40,862 nt of DNA from Deltaproteobacteria bacterium (GTDB lineage: Bacteria > Desulfobacterota > Binatia > UBA1149 > JAJCZL01). Within the stretch, counting starts at the first letter, position 1. Each line of letters begins with the position of its first letter. The position numbers and the translations under genes were made by a program. Positions 11,808-25,147 of this stretch are shown here, piece after piece. Below the pieces are notes generated by a model. The model was not told the origin of the DNA and ran no database searches. It saw only the letters and a list, made by a program, of their open reading frames with translations. The stretch is from assembly GCA_029262415.1 (NCBI GenBank), contig JAJCZL010000030.1:1-40862 (forward strand). The letters run 5' to 3'.

Positions 11808-12015
11808 GCCCGCTTCCCCCTACGCCGAGCAGTCGATAGTACCGGTTGGGACGGCTCAGGCCAGCCCGCTGGTCAACTGCTGGAGTGTAGCGCGGTGATC
11901 TGCGCGCCGTTACTCAAGTGCTCGTTCGAACGCCTGTCCGTGAGGGAGGATTAACCGCACGCGTTAAGACCTTCGTCCCTGTTGTAGAGTGGTCGGTTGG
12001 GTAGATAAGGTGACC

Positions 12016-15000
12016 ATGAATGCCGAGTTGCTACTTACGACAGTGACACACAACGAGGGCCCCCACATGTCCGGTCACAGCACCTTTAGCGAAGCCCGAA
12101 TCCTTTCACCGACTCATTCCACTCCGTACATATGTGCTCTAGCTGGGCTGGTCTGCCTAGCATTGATGCTGGCCGCGCCCGCTGCACAAGCCGCTGGACC
12201 TGTGGCGGCCACGTTCGCATACGAGCACGATCCCCTACCGCGCGCCGGTTGGTGGACGGAATGCCGTTTCGCCGATGGCAGTGGTGTCCGCCTTGCCGAA
12301 CGCTGCTATCACGGCGACTGCTTCAACGCCGCCGATCTGGTCCTCGAACGCTTCGATGCATCCGGTGCATTGATTGGAGAGCCCGCGGCGGTTACGCAGC
12401 GACGCGCTGCCCAAAAGGGATATCGCGTTCAGTGTCACGACTCGGGATGGATGGTCGCTCAGTGGCGTCAGCGTTCCGACGGCTGCTATCACCACCGAAT
12501 CTTTGCCCCAACCGCCACCGCTACCACCGGGCCGCTGCTGACGATGAACCAGGCAAAGGACGACTGCCGCACACGGGCTTCGCTTGACGTTGGCTCAGAC
12601 GGTGGATTTCTCGCAGTGTGGCAAGCACCGACCGGGGCCTACCGCAACGCAATTGTAGCTCGACGCTACGGAAGCGATGGCGAATCCGTAGGCGAGCTCG
12701 TTGAGATCAGCTCCGATAGCGACGGCCGTAACCGCGCGTCCAAGGTGTCGGTAGCCGCTGACGGGATCGCGCTTGCCGTTTGGATCCAGGATGCGACGGG
12801 ACCCGGTCACATCATGGCGCGGTTCCTCGATTCTTCGCTAGGCTTGATCGGAGACCCCTTCCGCGTAGACGACTTCGCCTTTGGAAACAACACCGACCCG
12901 TTGATCCGGTGGACACCTGAGCGCGGCTTTCTTGTCGGCTGGGTAAACCCTGTATTCGGCGGCCGCGTCGCGCGAAGAGTCGCCACCGATGCTGCCGGAG
13001 CGGTCGATTCGCCCGGGTCGGCGGTAACCCCCAGTTTCGCGGACTTCGGTGCAACCCGAACGGTCGACTCAGTGCTTCGAGAGCCGGGTACTCCCAACGA
13101 CTTGCAAGCGACCGCGGAAGATCCGGGTGTTTGGACGATCTCGCACAGTGCCAATCAAGCGATACGGAGTACCGACGACGGTGCCACCTGGCACGTAGCA
13201 GGAGCTCCCCAACTTTTTCCTGGCTGCGAAGATTGTTCGGGACTGCCCGGTACGGCTTTCACATCTGAGGGCGGAACCCGCGTCGCGGCTTGGGTGGAAC
13301 AAGACGGCACAATCGGAGTGGGGCGTTCGCCCGATGCAGGCATGAGCTGGATGCCTGCGGGGACGGCTTCTCTCGCTAGTGACGATGTTCGCGACATTCG
13401 CGTTGTAGCCGGTGCAAACACAACCTGGGTTCTTGTGTGGATGGACGAGTCGCTTCACTGGGCCCGCTCGACCGACGACGGCCAGACCTGGTCGGCAGCC
13501 GAGACACTCGTCGAAGGCGTCATTTGCACGAAGTGCAAACGCGACCGCCATTACACCCGTATCGGTCTTGCCACTGATGGCGACGGTGCGTGGGGCCTCG
13601 CGTTCTCTTCGGGCGCCTACAACGCTTCCGAACTCGGATTTGACGGCGACATTTTTCTGCTGCGATCGAGCGACAACGCTTCTACTTGGTCCGCACCAGT
13701 CGCCCTCGGCTCTCACGGCATCACCGACGGTGCACGCGATAGCGACCCCAGTCTTGCGATAGACGCCACGGGCCGGTGGATCGCGGCATGGAGCACACAT
13801 ATGCCCGTACCTGGAGCCGACGACCTTGAGAAAGACGTCGTAGTCTCAACTTCGACGAACGGGGGCGTCACGTGGTCGCCGCCCCGTACACTCGCCGATG
13901 GTGCAAGCGGCGATACCGCTTCGGATGGTGCGGCTTCGCTTGCAGCCGGTGGCGGCGGCGAGCTCTTGGCCTCCTGGGTCTCAGTGGCTCTCGTGGCCGG
14001 GCCGCACGGCCTCGTAGAAGCCCGTATCCACGCAGCGTTCGCGGATCCTCGGTGCGGGAACACCGTAGTCGAAACGGGCGAGGAGTGTGAGGACGGGAAT
14101 CGAAACGACGGTGACGGATGCGATTCGAACTGTGCGCGGAGCTGCGGAAACGGGATCTTGAACGACGGCGAAGGTTGCGACGACGGCAACCAACGTCCTG
14201 ATGACGCGTGTACGCTTGGATGTGCGCAGGCCGTGTGCGGGGACGGTGTGCTGTTCACGGGAGTTGAGGACTGTGACGACGGCAACGATTCTGACAGCGA
14301 CGACTGTCCGAGCGGCTGCCGGTTTCCGCGTTGCGGGGACGGCTTCCTGCACGAAGCCACAGAGAGCTGCGACGATGGGAACGGCTCGGATAATGACGGC
14401 TGCCTGTCCACTTGCGTACCCAACGTGTGCGGAGACGGCGTCCGCAACGCGGGCGTCGAGGTCTGCGACGATGGCAATGTGAGCGACTTCGACCGTTGCC
14501 CTTCCGATTGCGGAATCGGCGTCTGCGGTGACGGTTTCACCAGTATGGGGATAGAACCCTGCGACTATGCCGACCCGCTCTACGCGAGAATCTGCGAATC
14601 GGATTGCACCATTAAGGACCGCTGCGGTGACTTCAACGCGGACGGGGCGATCAGCGCAACCGACGCGCGTGGTATCCTCAAAGACGCCGTTGGGCTGAGC
14701 GCGTACTGCACTACGACCAGTTGCGATCTCGATGGAAACGGCCGGATCCAGTCCAGCGATGCACTGTTGGCGCTGCGAAGCAGCGTAGGCCAACAGGTCG
14801 GTCTACGTTGCTCGATCGGCACCGGCCCAATCGTGTTCTGGATAGACGACAGTCGCGATATGCAGGCACTGCAATTCATAGTTCACTACGGACCAACCGG
14901 TGGCAACTTCAGCGGTCATGGCGCGGCCGTCGAATGCAAAGCTCTGCAGCCTAGCTTGTTCGCCGCCAACGACAATGAAGACAAAGAGTTTCTTGTGATG

Positions 15001-15186
15001 GGATTCGTTACCAACAAAACGTTGGGCGGCAAGCGTGACCTTGCACGTTGCAACTTCGAACTGCCCGCAGGGTTCAACGGGCAAGGGTTTACGTTCCGGA
15101 TAGACGACGTTTCGGATGCCGACAGCACGAGGTTGATCCCGGAACCGCGTCTCGGCTATCGCTTGGAGCCCGTGCTGGCCCCGTAA
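12016..15186 (+). CDS. Secreted multidomain protein: sialidase-like repeats, cysteine-rich repeats, dockerin-like pair
   Basis: About 1056 residues. A hydrophobic signal stretch (YICALAGLVCLALML then AAPAAQA) follows a long hydrophilic leader. ATG 12016 has aagg five bases upstream; ATG 12067 gives a shorter n-region and is also plausible. Residues ~50-660 contain BNR/sialidase-type motifs (SxDxGxTW variants such as STDDGATWHV, SPDAGMSW, STDDGQTWSA, SSDNASTWSA, STNGGVTWSP), indicating a beta-propeller. From about 14050 to 14560 come cysteine-rich CGDG...CDDGN repeats, then at 14623-14815 two dockerin-like loops (DFNADGAISATDA and DLDGNGRIQSSDA) and a final ~120-residue beta-rich domain reminiscent of cohesin-associated modules. 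No catalytic sialidase residues can be assigned. Role: extracellular binding protein or scaffold, inferred. Confidence 0.87.
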   Translation: MNAELLLTTVTHNEGPHMSGHSTFSEARILSPTHSTPYICALAGLVCLALMLAAPAAQAAGPVAATFAYEHDPLPRAGWWTECRFADGSGVRLAERCYHGDCFNAADLVLERFDASGALIGEPAAVTQRRAAQKGYRVQCHDSGWMVAQWRQRSDGCYHHRIFAPTATATTGPLLTMNQAKDDCRTRASLDVGSDGGFLAVWQAPTGAYRNAIVARRYGSDGESVGELVEISSDSDGRNRASKVSVAADGIALAVWIQDATGPGHIMARFLDSSLGLIGDPFRVDDFAFGNNTDPLIRWTPERGFLVGWVNPVFGGRVARRVATDAAGAVDSPGSAVTPSFADFGATRTVDSVLREPGTPNDLQATAEDPGVWTISHSANQAIRSTDDGATWHVAGAPQLFPGCEDCSGLPGTAFTSEGGTRVAAWVEQDGTIGVGRSPDAGMSWMPAGTASLASDDVRDIRVVAGANTTWVLVWMDESLHWARSTDDGQTWSAAETLVEGVICTKCKRDRHYTRIGLATDGDGAWGLAFSSGAYNASELGFDGDIFLLRSSDNASTWSAPVALGSHGITDGARDSDPSLAIDATGRWIAAWSTHMPVPGADDLEKDVVVSTSTNGGVTWSPPRTLADGASGDTASDGAASLAAGGGGELLASWVSVALVAGPHGLVEARIHAAFADPRCGNTVVETGEECEDGNRNDGDGCDSNCARSCGNGILNDGEGCDDGNQRPDDACTLGCAQAVCGDGVLFTGVEDCDDGNDSDSDDCPSGCRFPRCGDGFLHEATESCDDGNGSDNDGCLSTCVPNVCGDGVRNAGVEVCDDGNVSDFDRCPSDCGIGVCGDGFTSMGIEPCDYADPLYARICESDCTIKDRCGDFNADGAISATDARGILKDAVGLSAYCTTTSCDLDGNGRIQSSDALLALRSSVGQQVGLRCSIGTGPIVFWIDDSRDMQALQFIVHYGPTGGNFSGHGAAVECKALQPSLFAANDNEDKEFLVMGFVTNKTLGGKRDLARCNFELPAGFNGQGFTFRIDDVSDADSTRLIPEPRLGYRLEPVLAP

Positions 15187-15280: not shown

Positions 15281-17698
15281 GTGTCGGTTTTACCTCAATT
15301 AGGCTTCCTTCTGCTGACGCTCGTTTGGTTCGAGATGGGCGTTTCTGTTGGACCGGCCCAGGCCGCGTATCCTGCCCAAGACGGACGAGCCGTCGTGGGA
15401 TTGGTTACCGATGGGCCCGCCGGAGGCTTCGAGACAATCTTCGAGGACATCAAGTTCTATCTGAAAGAGCTCTCAGGCGAGACCTACGAGTTCGAGTTCA
15501 TCGAGGACTACGTCGGAGACTTCACCCCGAGGGGCATTCTGCGCGAACTCGAGCGCGCGCTTGCCGACCCCCGCATCGACGTTGTGTACGCAGGCGGGCC
15601 GATCGCAACGGAATTGGCGGGTGCGTTGCCGTCCGCTGTGCGAACAAAGCCCGTCTTCGGCGGGTTCCCCGAGTTCTCGCAGAGACATCATCTTGCGCTC
15701 ACCCCCGACGGCGCCTCAGCAATCGAGAATTTCACCTACGCCTCGACTAGCAATCGTGTGGTGGCGGACGTCACGGCTCTGGCTCGCTTGTCACACCAGT
15801 CAGAGATCCATGTGGTATTGGATACCGGCATTTACGATTTGTTCAGGGACGACACGACACAAGTTTCGGAGATCGAAGCCCGCATGGGCGTGAAGGTGCA
15901 CTTCTATCCCGCAACCAGCTTCGCTGACGAGGCGCTTTCGATGATGCCGACAGAGGCCGCGGCTGTTTATGTGGCGTTCTTACCGCGGTTCTCAGAGCAC
16001 GAACTCCGCAAGCTGTTCGCAAAGTTGACGGACCGGAAATCGTTCACCATGAGCATGTTCGGGCCCTCCGGCCTGGTCGTGGGCGCAACCGCTTCATTAG
16101 CCCCCGATTTGCGCGATCCCATTGCGCGTCGTTCGGCATTGAATCTACACCTGCTGTTCCTCGGGAGAGGTACAGATGAACTTGCCGTTCATCTACCGAA
16201 CGAAGATCGACTAGTAATCAATATGCCGATAGCAAACGCGATCGGCTGGGCGCCTGATTACGAAACCCACCTGACGGCCGAATTCATCGGTGAATCGCTG
16301 TCATCTGTGAAGGCACCAACACTCACGCTCGATGATGCGATGAACCGTGCGGCTACGAGCAACTCCAACGCACTCGCGAGTCGGCATGCGGCGGGCGTTG
16401 CAAGAGCCGACGAGCGCATCACTGCGAGCGCTGCCAGGCCGGCGCTGGATCTCATCACCGGTCACAGTGTGTTGCGGCGCACCGATCCGATCGATCCCTT
16501 CGCCCCCTCTCATCAGGATTCCGGCAGCTACGGCGTGAGACTTCGACAAGTGCTCTTTGATGACAATCTTTGGAGCGCGATACAGGCACAACGTCACTCA
16601 TCGGAAGCAGCGGAGTTCGATGCGCGCTCGGCCGAGCTGGATGCTCGCGCAGCGGGTGGCACCGGTTTCCTGCAGTGGGTACTGGCCGAGATGCTGTACC
16701 GAATCGAGCAAGAGAACTTAGATCTGACCGAGAGCAATCTAAGGCTCGCGAAACTACGTGTGACGATCGGCACTGCCGAACGCACGGAGGTTTATCGTTG
16801 GGAGTCTGAGGTCGCGGGCGATCGGGCCAATCTCTTTCAACGTGAAAGTGCGCGGCACAATGCGATGGTTACTCTGAATCGTACCATGGCTTCACCGCGT
16901 GCGATGCGTTGGAGGCCGACGGAGATCAGGCTTGGAAAGTCCGAAATATTCTTTATGAACGAAACCCTCTCTCCCTTGATTCAAAACGGAGCGTGGCTCG
17001 AATCACTCGCTTCGTTCTTCGAGCACATCGCGACCGAACTTTCTCCCGAACTCCAGTCGTTCGACAAAACCCTGCGTGCGCAGGGGATCCTACTGAAGCA
17101 GAAAAAGCGTGCTTACTACGTCCCGAGCGTAACCTTTGAGGCCGGCTACGATCGAGTGGCCGCAGGGTCCGAAGGATTGGAGACCGATGCCGAAAACCAG
17201 TGGACCGCGGGCATCGGCCTGGAGCTGCCGCTGTTTGAAGGCGGGCGTCGTCGAGCCGACATCGATCGTCAGCGGTCGTTGATCGCACAAATTGCAGCAC
17301 AACGGCTGTCGGCGGTCGAAGCCATCGAAGAACAGGCACGTACCACATTCAACACAATGGCGGCTGACCATGCGAACATCCGATTGAGTACGCTTGCCTA
17401 CGAAGGCGCGGAAAAGAACTACAAAGCGGTCAGTAACAAATACTCTCAGGGCGTGGCCACGATCTTGGACTTACTCGACGCGCAGTCACGCCTATTGCTC
17501 CAGCGTCAACAGATTGCCGCGGCGACCTATGGGTATTTGATCGACGTTGTTTCGCTGCAACGCGCTATCGGCTGGTTCGAGAAAGCTTCTAGTGAAGAGG
17601 AGAAAGCGAGCATTGCGGAGCGGCTGCAGGAATACGTAAAAACCTGGCCAAAATCCCGGACGGGCGGGCGCGGCAAACAAAGTGCAGGTGTTCAATGA
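15281..17698 (+). CDS. TolC-family outer-membrane channel fused to an N-terminal periplasmic-binding domain
   Basis: 805 residues, nearly twice the usual TolC length. A GTG start gives a signal peptide (LGFLLLTLVWFEMGVSVGP then AQA). Residues ~35-335 resemble ABC_sub_bind-type periplasmic binding proteins: AVVGLVTDGPAGGFE, DVVYAGGPIATELAG, TKPVFGG and near the end LVINMPIANAIGW, which matches the family's closing NxxxAxxxG segment. Residues ~345-780 are an outer-membrane efflux domain with two helical-hairpin halves: TLTLDDAMNRAATSN, then YKAVSNKYSQGVATILDLLD and AQSRLLLQRQQIAAATYGYL. It is the first gene of the operon; its stop overlaps the adaptor start by four bases (ATGA). The binding domain may sense or capture the efflux substrate; that is inference. 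Confidence 0.88.
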   Translation: MSVLPQLGFLLLTLVWFEMGVSVGPAQAAYPAQDGRAVVGLVTDGPAGGFETIFEDIKFYLKELSGETYEFEFIEDYVGDFTPRGILRELERALADPRIDVVYAGGPIATELAGALPSAVRTKPVFGGFPEFSQRHHLALTPDGASAIENFTYASTSNRVVADVTALARLSHQSEIHVVLDTGIYDLFRDDTTQVSEIEARMGVKVHFYPATSFADEALSMMPTEAAAVYVAFLPRFSEHELRKLFAKLTDRKSFTMSMFGPSGLVVGATASLAPDLRDPIARRSALNLHLLFLGRGTDELAVHLPNEDRLVINMPIANAIGWAPDYETHLTAEFIGESLSSVKAPTLTLDDAMNRAATSNSNALASRHAAGVARADERITASAARPALDLITGHSVLRRTDPIDPFAPSHQDSGSYGVRLRQVLFDDNLWSAIQAQRHSSEAAEFDARSAELDARAAGGTGFLQWVLAEMLYRIEQENLDLTESNLRLAKLRVTIGTAERTEVYRWESEVAGDRANLFQRESARHNAMVTLNRTMASPRAMRWRPTEIRLGKSEIFFMNETLSPLIQNGAWLESLASFFEHIATELSPELQSFDKTLRAQGILLKQKKRAYYVPSVTFEAGYDRVAAGSEGLETDAENQWTAGIGLELPLFEGGRRRADIDRQRSLIAQIAAQRLSAVEAIEEQARTTFNTMAADHANIRLSTLAYEGAEKNYKAVSNKYSQGVATILDLLDAQSRLLLQRQQIAAATYGYLIDVVSLQRAIGWFEKASSEEEKASIAERLQEYVKTWPKSRTGGRGKQSAGVQ

Positions 17699-18750
17699 TT
17701 CGGAAGAGGTCGATCAGCGTGTTTGTGGTCATGAGTCTCGCTGCCTGCACACCCGCCGCTCCCGACACCGTCGAGATTGTGCGCCCTGTCTACGCGCACC
17801 GGGTGGCCGCGGGTGGTGAAAACATTGCACGGACGTTCAGTGGGATTGTCGGTGTGGCGGGAGGCGTAGATCTCGGCTTTGACGTGTCCGGGCGGATCAT
17901 AGAACTCAAAGCCCGTACCGGACAAACCTACCAGCAGGGAGCCGTGCTCGCGCGAATGGACGCGAGCGACTATCGCGCCGATGCCAACAATGCAGAAGCG
18001 CAGTTTGCGGTGGCTGAAGCCGATCTGAATAGAACGCTACGCTTGTTCGAAAGCAACACGGCGAGCAAGAGCCAACTCGATGCGGATATGGCCCGGCGCG
18101 AAGCGGCAAAGGCTTCGCTGGCTATCGCGCGCAAGCGACTACGAGATTGCGCGTTGATCATGCCCTACGCCGGTGTGATCGGACGTGTGGTTGCGGATTC
18201 TCAACAAGTGGTGAGTCCCGGCCAGACAGTTGTCACAATTCAGAATCAGGAAGGCTTCGAAATCGAATTCGGTGTGCCGGTCGATATTATCGATCTCATC
18301 GCTATGGGCCAAGAAATCCGGATCAAACTGGGCGCTTATCCGGATCGCGAGTATGCGGGTATCGTACAAGAGATTGCGCCACAGATCAGCGACAACACCA
18401 CATACCCGATAACGGCCCGTTTCGAAGGGGAAGCCGCGGGAATCAAAGAAGGCATGGATGGCGAAGTCTCGATCCAGCTTCCCAACCCGAACGGTGTCGC
18501 AATCGTGGTTCCGGCAGTCGCGATTGCCGGATCGCCGAGTGGCGGTGCGTATGCCTGGATCGTCGAAGGGACGGGCGAACTCGCAACGGTGACAAAGCGC
18601 GAAGTATCAGTCGGACCGCTGCGACGAAACGGGACTCTGGAAGTGTCGGCAGGCTTGGCGGTTGGGGAACTGATTGTATCGCGTGGTGTTCATCGAGTTC
18701 ACGACGGTCAGACAGTCCGAGTCCTCAGCGCGACGCCGGCCGAGTTCTAG
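17695..18750 (+). CDS. RND efflux periplasmic adaptor (membrane fusion protein), lipoprotein
   Basis: 351 residues. An N-terminal lipobox (VVMSLAAC, Cys18) marks a lipid-anchored adaptor, as in AcrA/MexA. The central part has the biotinyl/lipoyl-like halves (GFDVSGRIIELKARTGQTY and ALIMPYAGVIGRVVADSQ) flanking an alpha-helical hairpin (about residues 95-150). It continues with a beta-barrel (GQEIRIKLGAYPDREYAGIV) and a membrane-proximal domain. It bridges the inner-membrane pump to the TolC-type channel. The start codon overlaps the stop of the channel gene, a translationally coupled arrangement. The pump gene follows after 28 bases. Confidence 0.92.
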   Translation: MIRKRSISVFVVMSLAACTPAAPDTVEIVRPVYAHRVAAGGENIARTFSGIVGVAGGVDLGFDVSGRIIELKARTGQTYQQGAVLARMDASDYRADANNAEAQFAVAEADLNRTLRLFESNTASKSQLDADMARREAAKASLAIARKRLRDCALIMPYAGVIGRVVADSQQVVSPGQTVVTIQNQEGFEIEFGVPVDIIDLIAMGQEIRIKLGAYPDREYAGIVQEIAPQISDNTTYPITARFEGEAAGIKEGMDGEVSIQLPNPNGVAIVVPAVAIAGSPSGGAYAWIVEGTGELATVTKREVSVGPLRRNGTLEVSAGLAVGELIVSRGVHRVHDGQTVRVLSATPAEF

Positions 18751-18778: not shown

Positions 18779-21700
18779 ATGTTTAACGCAGCCGATTTTA
18801 CTCTTCGAAACAATCGGACTGTTCTGGTCATGTACGCCATGGCTATGTTGGTCGGAGTGGCCACGTTTCTGACGATTGGTCGTCTCGAGTACCCGGAGTT
18901 CACGATTCGGTCGGCCCAGGTGCTTACCTATTACCCAGGACGCACAACGATTCAGGTCGAAGAAGAAGTTACGGAGCCTCTGGAGCAAGCGATCCGCCAG
19001 ATGGCCGAGGTTGACGAGATTCGATCGACCTCCAAGCCCGGCCTTTCGATCATCACCGTCGAGTTGGAAGAGAAGTATTTCGAACTCGAAACGATCTGGC
19101 AGGACATGCGAAATCGCATCGCGCAGACTCGGCTTCCTGAAGGCGCGGCGCGTCCGGTCGTTAATGACGATTTCGGCGATGTCTTTCCTTACCTGTTCGC
19201 ACTGCGCGGAGACGGATACTCGGATGGCGAACTGATGCACGTCGCCGAAGACGTTCGCGATAGCTTACTAGAAGTAACCGGCGTCGCCAGGGTCAACCTG
19301 CACGGAGAACAAGACGAGCGGATATTCCTCGAGTTTTCCAGCAACGAACTGGCAGCTCAGAAGATATCGCCATCGCTGGTCGCTCAGCGCATCAGTGCTC
19401 AGAACGCTGTCGTATCCAGCGGTGGATTTCGCCTCGGGCCGCAGCGTCTCGATGTAGTGACGCTAGGCGAGTTCGAGACTTTGGAAGAGCTCGCCGCCTA
19501 TCGTCTCACATCGTCCGCAGCCGGCTCCAGTGTGCGAGTCGACGATGTGTTTGATATTCGGCGCGGATACATCGATCCGCCGATATCCGTCTCTCATTTC
19601 AACGGAGAGCGTGTCGTCTGCATCGCGGCGTCGATGATAGCGGGCGGCGTCATCACTGAAATCGGCGACAGCATTCTTGAAACGCTGGCCGACATCCAAT
19701 CGGAACTTCCGATCGGGTTGGACCTCGAGCCGATGTTTTACCAACCTGAATACGTTGGGGCTTCGATTGACGATTTCTTGATCAATCTCGGCCAGGCCTT
19801 CCTGTTCGTTGTTCTTGTCATGTTGGCGTTCGCCGGGGCCCGTATCGCCATGATTGTCGGGGTCCTGGTCCCGTCGGCAATTCTGTTGTGCTTCGCTCTC
19901 ATGCCTGCCTTCGGCGTGCTTTTAGAAATGATGTCGATCGCGGCACTTATTATCGCGCTCGGGTTGTTGGTCGACAATGCGGTGGTCGTAAGCGAACAGA
20001 TCTTGGTACAGATGGATCGTGGCGAGAGTCGCCGTGATGCCGTCGTCGGATCCGTTGATGGATTGAGTATCCCACTACTGGCGGCCAGTGGAACAACGAT
20101 CGCGGCATTTTCCACCATCGCGCTTTCGCCGGGAGAAACGAGTGAATTCACATACAGTTTGTTCGCCGTCGTCACCCTGACCCTGCTCGCAAGTTGGGTC
20201 TTGTCGCTCACGATCATCCCCTTACTTTGTTTCTACTTCCTCAAGCCCCTCGAGCGAGAAACATTGATCGGGCGCGGACTCCAGCGATTGTACGCTCCGT
20301 ATGAACGAACCTTGCGGGAATTGATTCGCCTGCGTTGGGCATACCCGGTTGTCATTCTCTTATTCACGTTCGTGGCCGGTTGGGGGATGCGTTTTGTTCC
20401 AAGCATATTCTTTCCGCCCAATGAGCGAGGCCAATTCATCGTTGACGTCGAACTGCCCTTCGGCACCGATATCAACGAAACGGAATCTCTCGTTTACGAA
20501 TTGGAACAATGGCTGGACACGACCCACGCCGAGGCCGTCAGAAGCATTTCCAGCTGGATCGGTGACGGTGGGCCTCGCTGGTACTTGTCTCTGAATGCAG
20601 AGCCACCCAATCCGAACTACGCATTCTTGACAGTGTTGACCTACCCCGAGGAGCCGGATGAGGTCCGTGCGTTGATTGACAGCGTAAACCTGTTTGCTGC
20701 TGAAGCGTTTCCCGATGCAAGGGTGAATGCGAGGGCTCTGGAGAACGGCCCTGCAGTCGGTGCACCGATTCAGATTCGTCTCTACGGCGACGAACTACCG
20801 ATGCTTTACGAGCTTAGGGATCGTTTACTCAGAAGTCTCGAGCCCATCGACGGTTTATACGATCTGCGCGACGATTGGGGTGCTTGGGTAAAACAAGCGA
20901 CCATCGACCCTGATCCGATTCGAGCGCCGCGTTTAGGCCTGACCACTTCGACGATCGCCGATGCCCTAAAATCCCAGTTTACCGGGATCGAAGTGACGAA
21001 CTTTCGAGAAGGGGAACATTCGATCCCCGTCGTTATTCGTTCTCGAGAAGATTTCCGCACGCGTCCGGAGCGTCTACGAGATTTACCCATCTTCGGTGGC
21101 GACGCGGGTATCGTGCCGCTGGGACAAGTAGCAAGTATCAATATCGATTTTCTGCCCGGTGCTATCCTGCGTGAGGACACGACTCGTGTGATGACCATCA
21201 AGGCCGAGGTTCGTGGGCGTTTCGCGAGCGATGTGCTTGCCGAGGTGCAACCGCTCGTCTACGCGCTGACTGAAACGAAACAATGGCCCAAAGGCTATCA
21301 TGTCGAATTCGGAGGAGAGCAGGAGGAAAGCTCCGAAGCACAATCAAATCTTGCTGCGGCGATGCCGGTTTCGCTGTCTATCTTGGCTTTCATCTTGATC
21401 AGTCAGTTTAACAGCATCCGACGTTTCCTGATCATCGTGCTTACCATTCCACCTATGCTGATCGGCGTAGTGCCCGGCCTTTTGCTCACCGGTTCCTCGT
21501 TCGGTTTTATGACCTTGCTCGGTTTGATCGCGCTTCTCGGCATTATCGTGAACAACGCAATCTTGTTGATCGACGAAACGGATCTTAAGTTGTCGAGCGG
21601 TGAACCTCTGATCGAAGCCGTGGTCAGCGCGGCAAAGAGCCGACTGCGTCCGATCTTGATGACCACCCTGACAACGATCATCGGATTGTTGCCGTTGGCG

Positions 21701-21847
21701 ATCGGTGGGGGCGGCATGTGGAGTTCAATGGCCTTCGCGATGATGTTCGGGCTTGGGTTCGCGACGCTTCTTACGTTGGCGTTATGCCCGGTGCTTTTCG
21801 TTGTTTTCTTTCAACGCGATTACGATGTCGCTCTTACCGAGTCTTGA
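18779..21847 (+). CDS. RND-family inner-membrane efflux pump
   Basis: 1022 residues, the normal size of AcrB-type permeases. ATG 18779 is preferred because it starts the conserved cytoplasmic leader and first helix (FNAADFTLRNNRTVLVMYAM); the frame extends upstream only into the adaptor gene. Two sets of helices (1 + 5, twice) surround large periplasmic loops. In TM4 the motif GLLVDNAVVVSEQI has Asp399-Asn400 where AcrB has Asp407-Asp408. In TM10 the segment GIIVNNAILLIDE has Asn925 where AcrB has Lys940. This VDN/VNN pattern occurs in a separate branch of RND permeases. Substrate range is unknown. Last gene of the tripartite operon. Confidence 0.93.
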   Translation: MFNAADFTLRNNRTVLVMYAMAMLVGVATFLTIGRLEYPEFTIRSAQVLTYYPGRTTIQVEEEVTEPLEQAIRQMAEVDEIRSTSKPGLSIITVELEEKYFELETIWQDMRNRIAQTRLPEGAARPVVNDDFGDVFPYLFALRGDGYSDGELMHVAEDVRDSLLEVTGVARVNLHGEQDERIFLEFSSNELAAQKISPSLVAQRISAQNAVVSSGGFRLGPQRLDVVTLGEFETLEELAAYRLTSSAAGSSVRVDDVFDIRRGYIDPPISVSHFNGERVVCIAASMIAGGVITEIGDSILETLADIQSELPIGLDLEPMFYQPEYVGASIDDFLINLGQAFLFVVLVMLAFAGARIAMIVGVLVPSAILLCFALMPAFGVLLEMMSIAALIIALGLLVDNAVVVSEQILVQMDRGESRRDAVVGSVDGLSIPLLAASGTTIAAFSTIALSPGETSEFTYSLFAVVTLTLLASWVLSLTIIPLLCFYFLKPLERETLIGRGLQRLYAPYERTLRELIRLRWAYPVVILLFTFVAGWGMRFVPSIFFPPNERGQFIVDVELPFGTDINETESLVYELEQWLDTTHAEAVRSISSWIGDGGPRWYLSLNAEPPNPNYAFLTVLTYPEEPDEVRALIDSVNLFAAEAFPDARVNARALENGPAVGAPIQIRLYGDELPMLYELRDRLLRSLEPIDGLYDLRDDWGAWVKQATIDPDPIRAPRLGLTTSTIADALKSQFTGIEVTNFREGEHSIPVVIRSREDFRTRPERLRDLPIFGGDAGIVPLGQVASINIDFLPGAILREDTTRVMTIKAEVRGRFASDVLAEVQPLVYALTETKQWPKGYHVEFGGEQEESSEAQSNLAAAMPVSLSILAFILISQFNSIRRFLIIVLTIPPMLIGVVPGLLLTGSSFGFMTLLGLIALLGIIVNNAILLIDETDLKLSSGEPLIEAVVSAAKSRLRPILMTTLTTIIGLLPLAIGGGGMWSSMAFAMMFGLGFATLLTLALCPVLFVVFFQRDYDVALTES

Positions 21848-22330: not shown

Positions 22331-25147
22331 ATGCGTACTATCGAGAGTAGAGGTGAAAATCGAGTCTTAGGATTTTTTTATCGAGCGACGCGTCGTGCGC
22401 TAACGTTTCGCGCTTCGCTCTTGATGCGAGCGCTGCTTGCGGTGATGTGCGCATCGTTGGGCTTCGGCGTTAGCGCGGAGGCGGGCATCGCCGACTCGCC
22501 ATTGCCGCAGTTCTCCGACGGCAAAGCCAGTGTATCGGTACTCGAGGTTCCCGGGGTGGTTAGCCGCAATGGCGTAGAAACCGTGTTCTTTTGTACTTCG
22601 CTGAATAGTGCCGACGTCAATGTCGGCGTCGAGTTGTTCGACACCGCGGGCACTTTGCTCAACAGCGTGAACGCCGGCGACGGTGCTCTCCTCAATGTGA
22701 TCCCCGGGGAGACCATAACCTTTAGCACGAGCGCTACCGCGAGCTATCTAGAAAGCCAAGTCATTGTCCTTCCGCCGAATACGCCGATAGCTCAGGGGTC
22801 GGCTCGCATCGTTGCCAGCTCGAGCCAGGTCGAGTGCAATGTGGTTATCGTCGACAAATTGATCACCCCGCCGGTTTCGCTCGCGACCCTCGGCGCCGGG
22901 GTTCAGCCCGAGGCGGCGGCAATCCTACCCGGCTTGGCGCTGCCGACCTTCAGCGACGGCCAGGCGGCGACTCATGCGGCTGTCTTCCCGGGTATCGTTA
23001 GCCGCAACGTCATGGAGACAAGCGTTTTTTGCACATCGTTGGCCGCCGTCAATATCGACATTGGTGTCGAAGTCATCGCTACCGACGGTAGTTCGGCCAA
23101 CTCCATTAACTTGAATAACGGTGCTCTTAAGAACGTTTCTCCCGGTCGCACCGTTACGTTCAGCACGGGTGGCACCTCCGCGTTCTTCGAAAACAGCATC
23201 GTTTCGATCATAGGGTCAGTGGCTCAGGGCTTGATCCGCGTAGTGAGCAACTCGGGTCAACTGATCTGCTCGGCGGTTTCTTTGGACGCGGCGCCGATAC
23301 TCAGTACCGACCCGCCCTCTGCGATGTCAAACCTGCATGGAAGCGCGGCGAGCGCGAGTAGCACCAATGTAGCGTTGACGAGCCCGTTGCCCCTGTTTTC
23401 CGACGGCAAGCAGAGCGTGTCGATTGCAACCGTCTCCGGTGTTCTCAAGCGCGACAGTCTGCAAACGCTGTTCATGTGTACGTCGGTCGATTCAGCACCG
23501 GTCGATATCGGTGTTCAGATCTTTGACGGCACCGGCGTGTTGACCAACGACATAAGCGCCGGCATCGGAGCGGTGTTGAACGTCGCTCCCGGTGCGTCCG
23601 TAACGATCGGCACGAGCACGACCGCAGCGTTTCTGGAAACCGTAGTAATACCGACGCTGAACAAACTACAAGGACTCGGACGAGTCGTCGCCAGTTCGGC
23701 CCAGGTTCGTTGTAATGCCGTGGTGGTTGACGACCTCAGCTCTCCGCCGGCCACGGCTATGGTCATCGGCGACGCCGTGCAGCCGGCTTTAGGGCCGCTG
23801 CCGTCGACGGTTGCGCTCCCGCAGTTTGCCGACGGAAAGCAGGCGACCCACGCCGCCTACTTTCCCGGTATCGTCAAGCGCGGTGATGTAGAGACGGATA
23901 TCTTTTGTACGTCGATCGCGAGCGGAGCGATCAACATAGGCGTCCAGTTTTTTCACACGCACGGGATGTTGGCCAACGACGTAACCCTGGGCAATGGCGC
24001 GATCCTCAATGTGCCTCCGGGTAACACCATTGCGTTCGGGACGACCGGGACCGCCGCGCTCTTTGAGAACCAAGTTGTGACCTTCCCCGGTCTTTCGCAG
24101 AGCTTCGTGCTGAGCCAGGGGCTCGCCCGTGTGGTCAGCAATTCCGATCAACTCATTTGCTCGGCCGTCGTGCTTGACGCTGGCCATGCCGGAGCGCCAC
24201 AGATTGGCGGTAAAACCCCGGGATCGATGTCGGCGTTGGTTGGTTTGGGCGCCGGTGCAGGGATCTGCGGAGACAACATTCTGCAGGCGGGCGAGCAATG
24301 CGACGGCACCGCCGACGCGGCTTGTCCGGGCCAGTGCGACACCGGTTGTCTCTGTCCTCCTGTATGCGGTGACGGATTCGTGCAAGCCGGCGAGCAGTGT
24401 GACGACGGTGGAACCGCCGGCGGCGATTGCTGTTCCGCCACCTGTCAGTTCGAGGCCTCCGGGTCGTCGTGTTTGGACGGTAACGTTTGTAACGGGGCGG
24501 AGGTCTGCAACGGCGCAGGGACATGCACCGTAGGGACGGCGATCGATTGCGACGACGGCAATGCGTGCACGCAAGACAGTTGCGACCCTCCGACCGGCCT
24601 GTGTACCAGCGATCCAGCGCCGGCGACGACCTGTCTGGCAGCGGGAAAGGGTTCTTTGCAGGTAAAAGACCATGCCACCAAGCCGGTCGACCAAATCAAA
24701 TGGAAATGGAGTCGTGGCGCGGCGTTCGTGCAAAGCGCAATCGGTGAGCCGCAGTCGGTTGCGACCTACACGATGTGCGTCTACGACGAAACCGCGGGGG
24801 CGGCTTCGGTTGCAGCTACGCTGACGCTTCCTCCGTCGCCGCTTTGGGTTAGCAAGGCCCCCAAGGGCTGGCAGTACAAAGACAAGCTGGGCAACTCGGA
24901 CGGGATTCAGCAGATCAAGTTCAAGCCGGGGCTGAGCACAAAGACCAAGGTGCAAGTGAAGGCAAAGGGTATCAACCTGCCGACACCGACGCCGTTCGGT
25001 GCTACCGAGTTTTTCGACCAGGATCCGAACGTGACCGTGCAGCTCTTTAACAGCCAGACGTCGACTTGTTGGACCTCGTCATTTGGGACCGGGACCAGCA
25101 AGAAGAACACAGTCAATCAGTTCAAGGCGAAGGCGCCCGCCCCGTAA
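22331..25147 (+). CDS. Secreted protein with A-B-A-B repeats and cysteine-rich repeats
   Basis: 938 residues. A signal peptide lies at about residues 30-55 (LLMRALLAVMCASLGF then SAEAG); ATG 22424 would give a more standard leader than ATG 22331. Four ~145-residue beta-rich modules follow, each opening LP.F.DGK and containing ET.FCTS, GVE-like strands, G.LNV.PG..ITF.T and a closing S.Q..C.AVVVD; modules 1 and 3, and 2 and 4, are the closest pairs. Then come cysteine-rich CGDG...GEQCD repeats (24262-24630) and a C-terminal ~160-residue domain (KGSLQVKDHATKPVDQIKWK near its start, GKxK-like strands) that looks like a carbohydrate- or surface-anchoring beta-sandwich. Function unknown; likely extracellular. 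Confidence 0.87.
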   Translation: MRTIESRGENRVLGFFYRATRRALTFRASLLMRALLAVMCASLGFGVSAEAGIADSPLPQFSDGKASVSVLEVPGVVSRNGVETVFFCTSLNSADVNVGVELFDTAGTLLNSVNAGDGALLNVIPGETITFSTSATASYLESQVIVLPPNTPIAQGSARIVASSSQVECNVVIVDKLITPPVSLATLGAGVQPEAAAILPGLALPTFSDGQAATHAAVFPGIVSRNVMETSVFCTSLAAVNIDIGVEVIATDGSSANSINLNNGALKNVSPGRTVTFSTGGTSAFFENSIVSIIGSVAQGLIRVVSNSGQLICSAVSLDAAPILSTDPPSAMSNLHGSAASASSTNVALTSPLPLFSDGKQSVSIATVSGVLKRDSLQTLFMCTSVDSAPVDIGVQIFDGTGVLTNDISAGIGAVLNVAPGASVTIGTSTTAAFLETVVIPTLNKLQGLGRVVASSAQVRCNAVVVDDLSSPPATAMVIGDAVQPALGPLPSTVALPQFADGKQATHAAYFPGIVKRGDVETDIFCTSIASGAINIGVQFFHTHGMLANDVTLGNGAILNVPPGNTIAFGTTGTAALFENQVVTFPGLSQSFVLSQGLARVVSNSDQLICSAVVLDAGHAGAPQIGGKTPGSMSALVGLGAGAGICGDNILQAGEQCDGTADAACPGQCDTGCLCPPVCGDGFVQAGEQCDDGGTAGGDCCSATCQFEASGSSCLDGNVCNGAEVCNGAGTCTVGTAIDCDDGNACTQDSCDPPTGLCTSDPAPATTCLAAGKGSLQVKDHATKPVDQIKWKWSRGAAFVQSAIGEPQSVATYTMCVYDETAGAASVAATLTLPPSPLWVSKAPKGWQYKDKLGNSDGIQQIKFKPGLSTKTKVQVKAKGINLPTPTPFGATEFFDQDPNVTVQLFNSQTSTCWTSSFGTGTSKKNTVNQFKAKAPAP
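22502..24245 (+). repeat. Four tandem ~145-residue modules in A-B-A-B order
   Basis: Module starts are near 22502 (A1), 22934 (B1), 23388 (A2) and 23811 (B2). A modules share VxGVxxRxxxxTxFxCTS and end in SSAQVxCNxVxVDxL. B modules share ATHAAxFPGIVxRxxxET, FCTS and SNSxQLICSAVxLDA. The order implies duplication of a two-module unit after A and B had already diverged. Confidence 0.85.

Follow-up and report, generated by a model that had tools for sequence, protein, structure and literature searches.

The stretch of DNA analysed here (40,862 nucleotides, hereafter the window) carries an operon whose first gene (15281-17698, + strand) reads, in the ORF list and its translation, as a single unbroken frame of 805 amino acids from a GTG start to a stop. 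In its product a signal peptide precedes a type I periplasmic binding-protein domain, to which a complete TolC/OEP channel is joined; the parts that follow all lie on the + strand. The signal peptide (15281..15364, residues 1-28; cleavage after AQA, assigned by eye) has no lipobox and forms a helix at residues 6-18 in the full-length model, followed by a low-confidence stretch; a lipobox-like motif precedes the binding domain in only 5 of 75 members of the fusion family. The ABC_sub_bind-like N-terminal domain (15383..16291, residues 35-337) was delimited by profile comparison with the PDB, PF04392, AlphaFold2 and a fold search. It is followed by a linker of fixed length (16292..16318, residues 338-346; defined by the A333-N361 span across fusions) and by the outer-membrane channel (16319..17593, residues 347-771; PF02321 and TolC superposition). 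The variable C-terminal tail (17594..17695, residues 772-805; from the alignment of relatives and the model) holds one helix at 772-788, and pLDDT is below 50 from residue 794.

The start of a periplasmic adaptor gene of the MFP kind (17695..18750, +; TIGR01730 RND_mfp 2.3e-59, above the cut-off) overlaps the stop of the fusion by 4 bases (ATGA), and its product carries the lipoprotein signal LAAC, recognised by eye. An RND efflux permease follows (18779..21847, +; PF00873 ACR_tran 5.1e-165); its longest frame begins at TTG 18674, and the most likely start, ATG 18779 (MFNAADFT), was picked by likeness to a relative's MINAADISLRNNRTV. One operon hence encodes a tripartite RND set of outer-membrane factor, adaptor and permease, as an earlier note on this DNA had described, and the fusion is predicted to serve a tripartite efflux pump, a putative exporter, as its outer-membrane component. 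The operon contains no ABC importer permease or ATPase, adaptor and RND genes being found instead, and no sigma-70-like site was found upstream of it. Two large secreted-looking proteins with DUF4215 repeats flank the operon (11989-15186 and 22331-25147); the former, which combines them with BNR-like repeats and a dockerin-like domain, is an unusual neighbour for an efflux operon.

The C-terminal half is predicted to be a TolC-family outer-membrane channel with the TolC fold. PF02321 (OEP) matches it in two stretches (E 9.9e-47, 159.6 bits against a family cut-off of 22), and model superposition places fusion residues 348-770 on TolC (1ek9) with Z 28.1 and rmsd 3.6 over 401 aligned residues, the match starting at TolC residue 1, immediately past the linker. 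Both results support the proposal that the rest of the protein is a complete TolC-like channel.

The identity of the N-terminal half was recovered from family profiles and structure. As a single sequence, the domain of the window found no match in Pfam, even at E 10, and nothing useful in the PDB. Among the 23 fused proteins of the family, 13 matched PF04392 ABC_sub_bind (best E 2.4e-6), and one of them (G199) passed the curated cut-off with 26.9 bits against 25.9. The family profile of the domain matched 3lkv (3.2e-12), 3lft (1.7e-5) and 6hni (3.4e-5) in the PDB, all aromatic amino-acid binding proteins. An AlphaFold2 model of the window's domain shows a two-lobed alpha/beta fold (pLDDT 89.6, pTM 0.87) whose nearest solved structures in a fold search were the same three proteins (Z 23.9, 23.4 and 22.7, respectively; 282-287 residues aligned, rmsd 3.9-4.4), as compared with Z about 16 for other type I binding proteins. 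By family profile and fold, the N-terminal domain is assigned to the ABC_sub_bind (TrpX/CD0873) superfamily of type I solute-binding proteins. Profile searches of each half, together with the structural match to a periplasmic binding protein (3lkv), thus uphold the earlier assignment of the N-terminal ~300 residues to an ABC_sub_bind-type binding domain.

Two separate genes joined in gene calling or assembly would give the same picture, and the genome of the window is a draft of 83 contigs. However, the same fusion occurs in dozens of other genomes and in complete isolate records, which include the Desulfosarcina alkanivorans chromosome and a Sulfuricurvum kujiense plasmid (Campylobacterota; WP_041667226.1). 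Because independent genomes by the dozen carry the fusion, we regard a chance or assembly artefact as excluded for all practical purposes.

The survey of other genomes that the earlier note had proposed revealed a widespread fusion. A single-sequence search found the N-terminal domain in 6 of 98 related genomes, that of the window included. A profile run against 395 genomes of the phylum gave roughly two dozen strong matches; all but a few of these were fused, and the majority lay beside adaptor and RND genes. A locus search across 84,980 species genomes returned 134 related loci, the best 80 of which were fetched; all 80 are fused, which is no frequency, as ranking by a full-length query favours fusions, though the search patterns lie in the N-terminal domain. 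By their taxon labels, which can err for the metagenome-assembled genomes (MAGs) that supply most loci, the fusions come from Thermodesulfobacteriota, Acidobacteriota, Gammaproteobacteria, Nitrospirota, Gemmatimonadota, Calditrichota, Krumholzibacteriota, Latescibacterota and Ignavibacteriota. The fusion thus spans nine or more phyla, with further copies on plasmids in Campylobacterota and Fusobacteriota. A scan of viral contigs gave no relatives. Several long OEP frames (about 680-810 amino acids) in genomes G002, G172, G409 and G427 were considered as further fusions and rejected: they gave no match to the N-terminal domain profile, and four of them, which were read in detail, run over unrelated sequence. 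At two loci from single MAGs (L148, 449-2876; L082, 6926-9325) the fusion is broken into two frames, probably by frameshift errors.

In 60 of the best 80 loci the fusion shares its strand with an adaptor gene and an RND gene; the three stand in the order fusion-adaptor-RND in 38 of these loci, adaptor-RND-fusion in 18 and irregularly in 4. At two loci beyond these 60 (L071 and L118), RND- and adaptor-like genes, recognised by eye, adjoin the fusion on the opposite strand; the remaining loci either run into a contig end or show no recognised pump nearby. In three operons the fusion is found with an HlyD adaptor, an RbbA-type ABC protein and a permease: two from Gammaproteobacteria (L134 and L145, by reading of the sequences) and that of Sulfuricurvum kujiense (as annotated). 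The same fusion thus accompanies both RND and RbbA-type ABC exporters, and therefore the domain goes with the channel and not with one pump. Fusions with HlyD adaptor, RbbA-type ABC protein and ABC-2 permease, in place of an RND pump, lie at L134 2120-9346, L145 444-7728 and L206 7899-15155.

In a tree of the channel halves, made by a quick method and with some long branches, 76 fused channels and the channel of locus L199 group into a single clade with support 100, to the exclusion of 18 unfused channels, most of which came from the same genomes. The tree suggests that the fusion has a single origin, and at least ten phyla have kept it since. Within the fused clade, the window protein and L015 fall in an early-branching group. 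Locus L199 (5821-8214, - strand), from the same order as the window, encodes a channel inside the fused clade that has no binding domain and is, by its place in the tree, one secondary loss of that domain. No adaptor or RND gene was recognised within the 16 kb fetched around it.

The junction between the halves is nearly constant. The A333-N361 span measures 28 residues in 88 of 98 fusions and 27-29 in 97 of them, and both end residues were invariant in an earlier alignment set. Identities of the domain and of the channel are correlated (r 0.78 over 2850 pairs, which are not independent), and domain dN/dS in close pairs with usable dS is 0.06-0.36, near that of the channel and mostly slightly higher. 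Judged by these ratios, both halves are under purifying selection. The ratios and the constant span together argue, therefore, for a domain that is under selection and held at a fixed distance from the channel.

TrpX relatives hold their ligand by residues that include T108, A127, T129, D152 and N233 (PMC9382623), and the amino and acid groups are held by a common mechanism (PMC6816091). Alignments at about 15-20% identity, on which the comparison of pockets relies, place T at the T108 position in every one of the 18 comparison rows from unfused proteins (some duplicated, about 13 distinct) and V, L, P, I and other residues there in the 76 fusions. The T129 position is mostly I, L or V in the same fusions, the D152 position mostly S, L, F or I, and the N233 position R, Q or H in 68. 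With these four residues replaced, any ligand would not be bound in the amino-acid manner of the relatives, and ordinary amino-acid binding by the domain was rejected as an explanation. Other residues are nearly invariant, namely D44 (99%), G45 (92%), G106 (99%), P124, G268, R283, N314 and A333; in this fold D44-G45 and G106 lie at C-terminal ends of strands that face the cleft. The pocket may have been re-set or it may have been lost, and the alignments allow either reading.

The N-terminal helix of TolC reaches from the equatorial belt as far as the membrane (PMC13082787). When the channel opens, the equatorial domain is the pivot of the entrance helices, and the accessory lipoprotein YbjP binds the belt 3:3 (both PMC13095208). 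Because the TolC N-terminus lies at the equator and the linker has about ten residues, the three binding domains of a trimeric channel would stand in the periplasm as a rigid three-fold collar round the equatorial belt; this position is taken from the location of the TolC N-terminus, and the full-length model, a monomer with pTM 0.61, does not fix it. The two lobes may respond to a small molecule (other than an amino acid held in the usual way of the family) or to an envelope partner and pass the change to the belt that serves the entrance helices as a pivot. The domain would thereby set when the channel opens or which pump docks, as a built-in channel regulator that acts in RND-driven and ABC-driven export alike. 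Regulation of channel opening or assembly by such a collar is the reading that we favour, tentatively and at somewhat less than even odds. It is supported by both folds, the constant junction, the TolC match from residue 1, purifying selection, the single fused clade, the pairing with both RND and RbbA-type ABC pumps and ligand-site residues that are re-set family-wide. Against it counts L199, a close relative that keeps the channel without the domain; the domain is therefore not strictly needed for the channel to persist. In its narrower form, with a periplasmic small molecule as the signal at which the domain opens or arms the TolC channel that it is part of, the reading seems to us unlikely; if true, such ligand-gated ducts would amount to post-translational export control at the outer membrane, by a module common to RND and ABC exporters in many phyla.

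Loss of the amino-acid anchoring residues and the rigid junction would also suit a collar that binds no ligand now and is purely structural, fixing the channel to peptidoglycan, outer membrane or adaptor, by analogy with the role thought of for YbjP or for the N-terminal lipid in other TolC proteins. Since a lipobox is missing from nearly all members of the family, the domain could stand in for a lipid anchor, and LpoA, an SBP-fold protein among the fold matches, is an envelope regulator. However, the cleft-facing D44-G45 and G106 rank with the best-conserved positions in the domain, beyond what a scaffold would need, and R, Q or H is kept so widely at the N233 position; we consider an assembly or anchoring collar a serious contender, if a doubtful one. 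A captured binding protein that survives as a passenger without function is very unlikely: the loss in L199 and a copy in L067 with two stop codons in the domain could be read that way, but purifying selection comparable to that on the channel half, the constant junction and retention in ten or more phyla speak against it. In that copy (L067, 9659-10564, - strand), the binding domain with its two in-frame stops is followed directly by an intact channel, adaptor and RND gene; the same genome holds a second, intact fusion (L068), and decay, sequencing error and recoding are all candidates.

The metallochaperone CusF feeds the RND pump CusCBA and, like the fusion domain, is a binding unit in the periplasm that is associated with an RND pump; its fold is unlike that of the fusion domain, and it acts at the adaptor and pump end, not at the outer-membrane channel. 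A comparable role, in which the domain captures a periplasmic compound and passes it to the adaptor or pump for export, would suit the binding-protein fold and the continued presence of the fusion in pump operons in most genomes. A linker of about ten residues would, by TolC geometry, hold the domain at the channel equator, far above the periplasmic entrance of the pump, and the same fusion serves RbbA-type ABC exporters; both points make capture and feeding improbable. To our knowledge, no lateral inlet into the TolC channel exists at the equator. The earlier note was right about the domains and the operon, and its functional idea, that the domain gates the channel or feeds it periplasmic substrate, is half supported: direct feeding fits poorly with the short fixed equatorial linker and the RbbA-type ABC partners and is less likely, whereas gating or assembly control by the domain is possible.

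The fusion shares with TolC/OprM outer-membrane factors (PF02321) the two OEP repeats, the fold over about 400 residues and the operon partners, and differs from them by about 300 extra N-terminal residues, the binding-protein domain, and by the clade of its own that the fused channels form. Its domain resembles ABC_sub_bind/TrpX proteins (PF04392; 3lkv, 3lft, 6hni) in whole-domain fold, in a family-level sequence relation and in the closing motif INxxxAxxxG, but it is not a separate importer lipoprotein, no ABC importer genes adjoin it, and T108, T129, D152 and N233 are replaced. The E. coli TolC-YbjP complex also carries extra periplasmic mass on TolC at the equatorial belt (PMC13082787, PMC13095208), although YbjP is a separate lipoprotein and not an SBP domain, and the position of the fusion domain is inferred, not seen.

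In the prevailing view, TolC channels are ducts opened by the adaptor of the pump. A domain that has stayed in fixed geometry ever since a single origin, across at least ten phyla and beside two unrelated pump types, suggests that some outer-membrane ducts possess a sensing or docking part of their own, and the fusion makes a direct test possible, by deletion of the domain or mutation of the cleft with the channel measured. Searches of open-access text turned up nothing relevant on such a fusion, in agreement with the earlier note, which knew of no experimentally described example. Each of the two halves is of a known kind, as is the operon, and their combination, single clade and spread appear to be undescribed in the open-access literature. 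The Sulfuricurvum kujiense fusion is annotated as 'ABC transporter substrate binding protein' and the form on Cetobacterium plasmids as 'TolC family protein'; databases therefore list the fusion under a name that fits one of its two halves. The Cetobacterium (Fusobacteriota) fusions, on plasmid loci L207 (6806-8986) and L208 (6275-8446), are shorter (about 725 amino acids) and diverged, and are accompanied by adaptor and RND genes.
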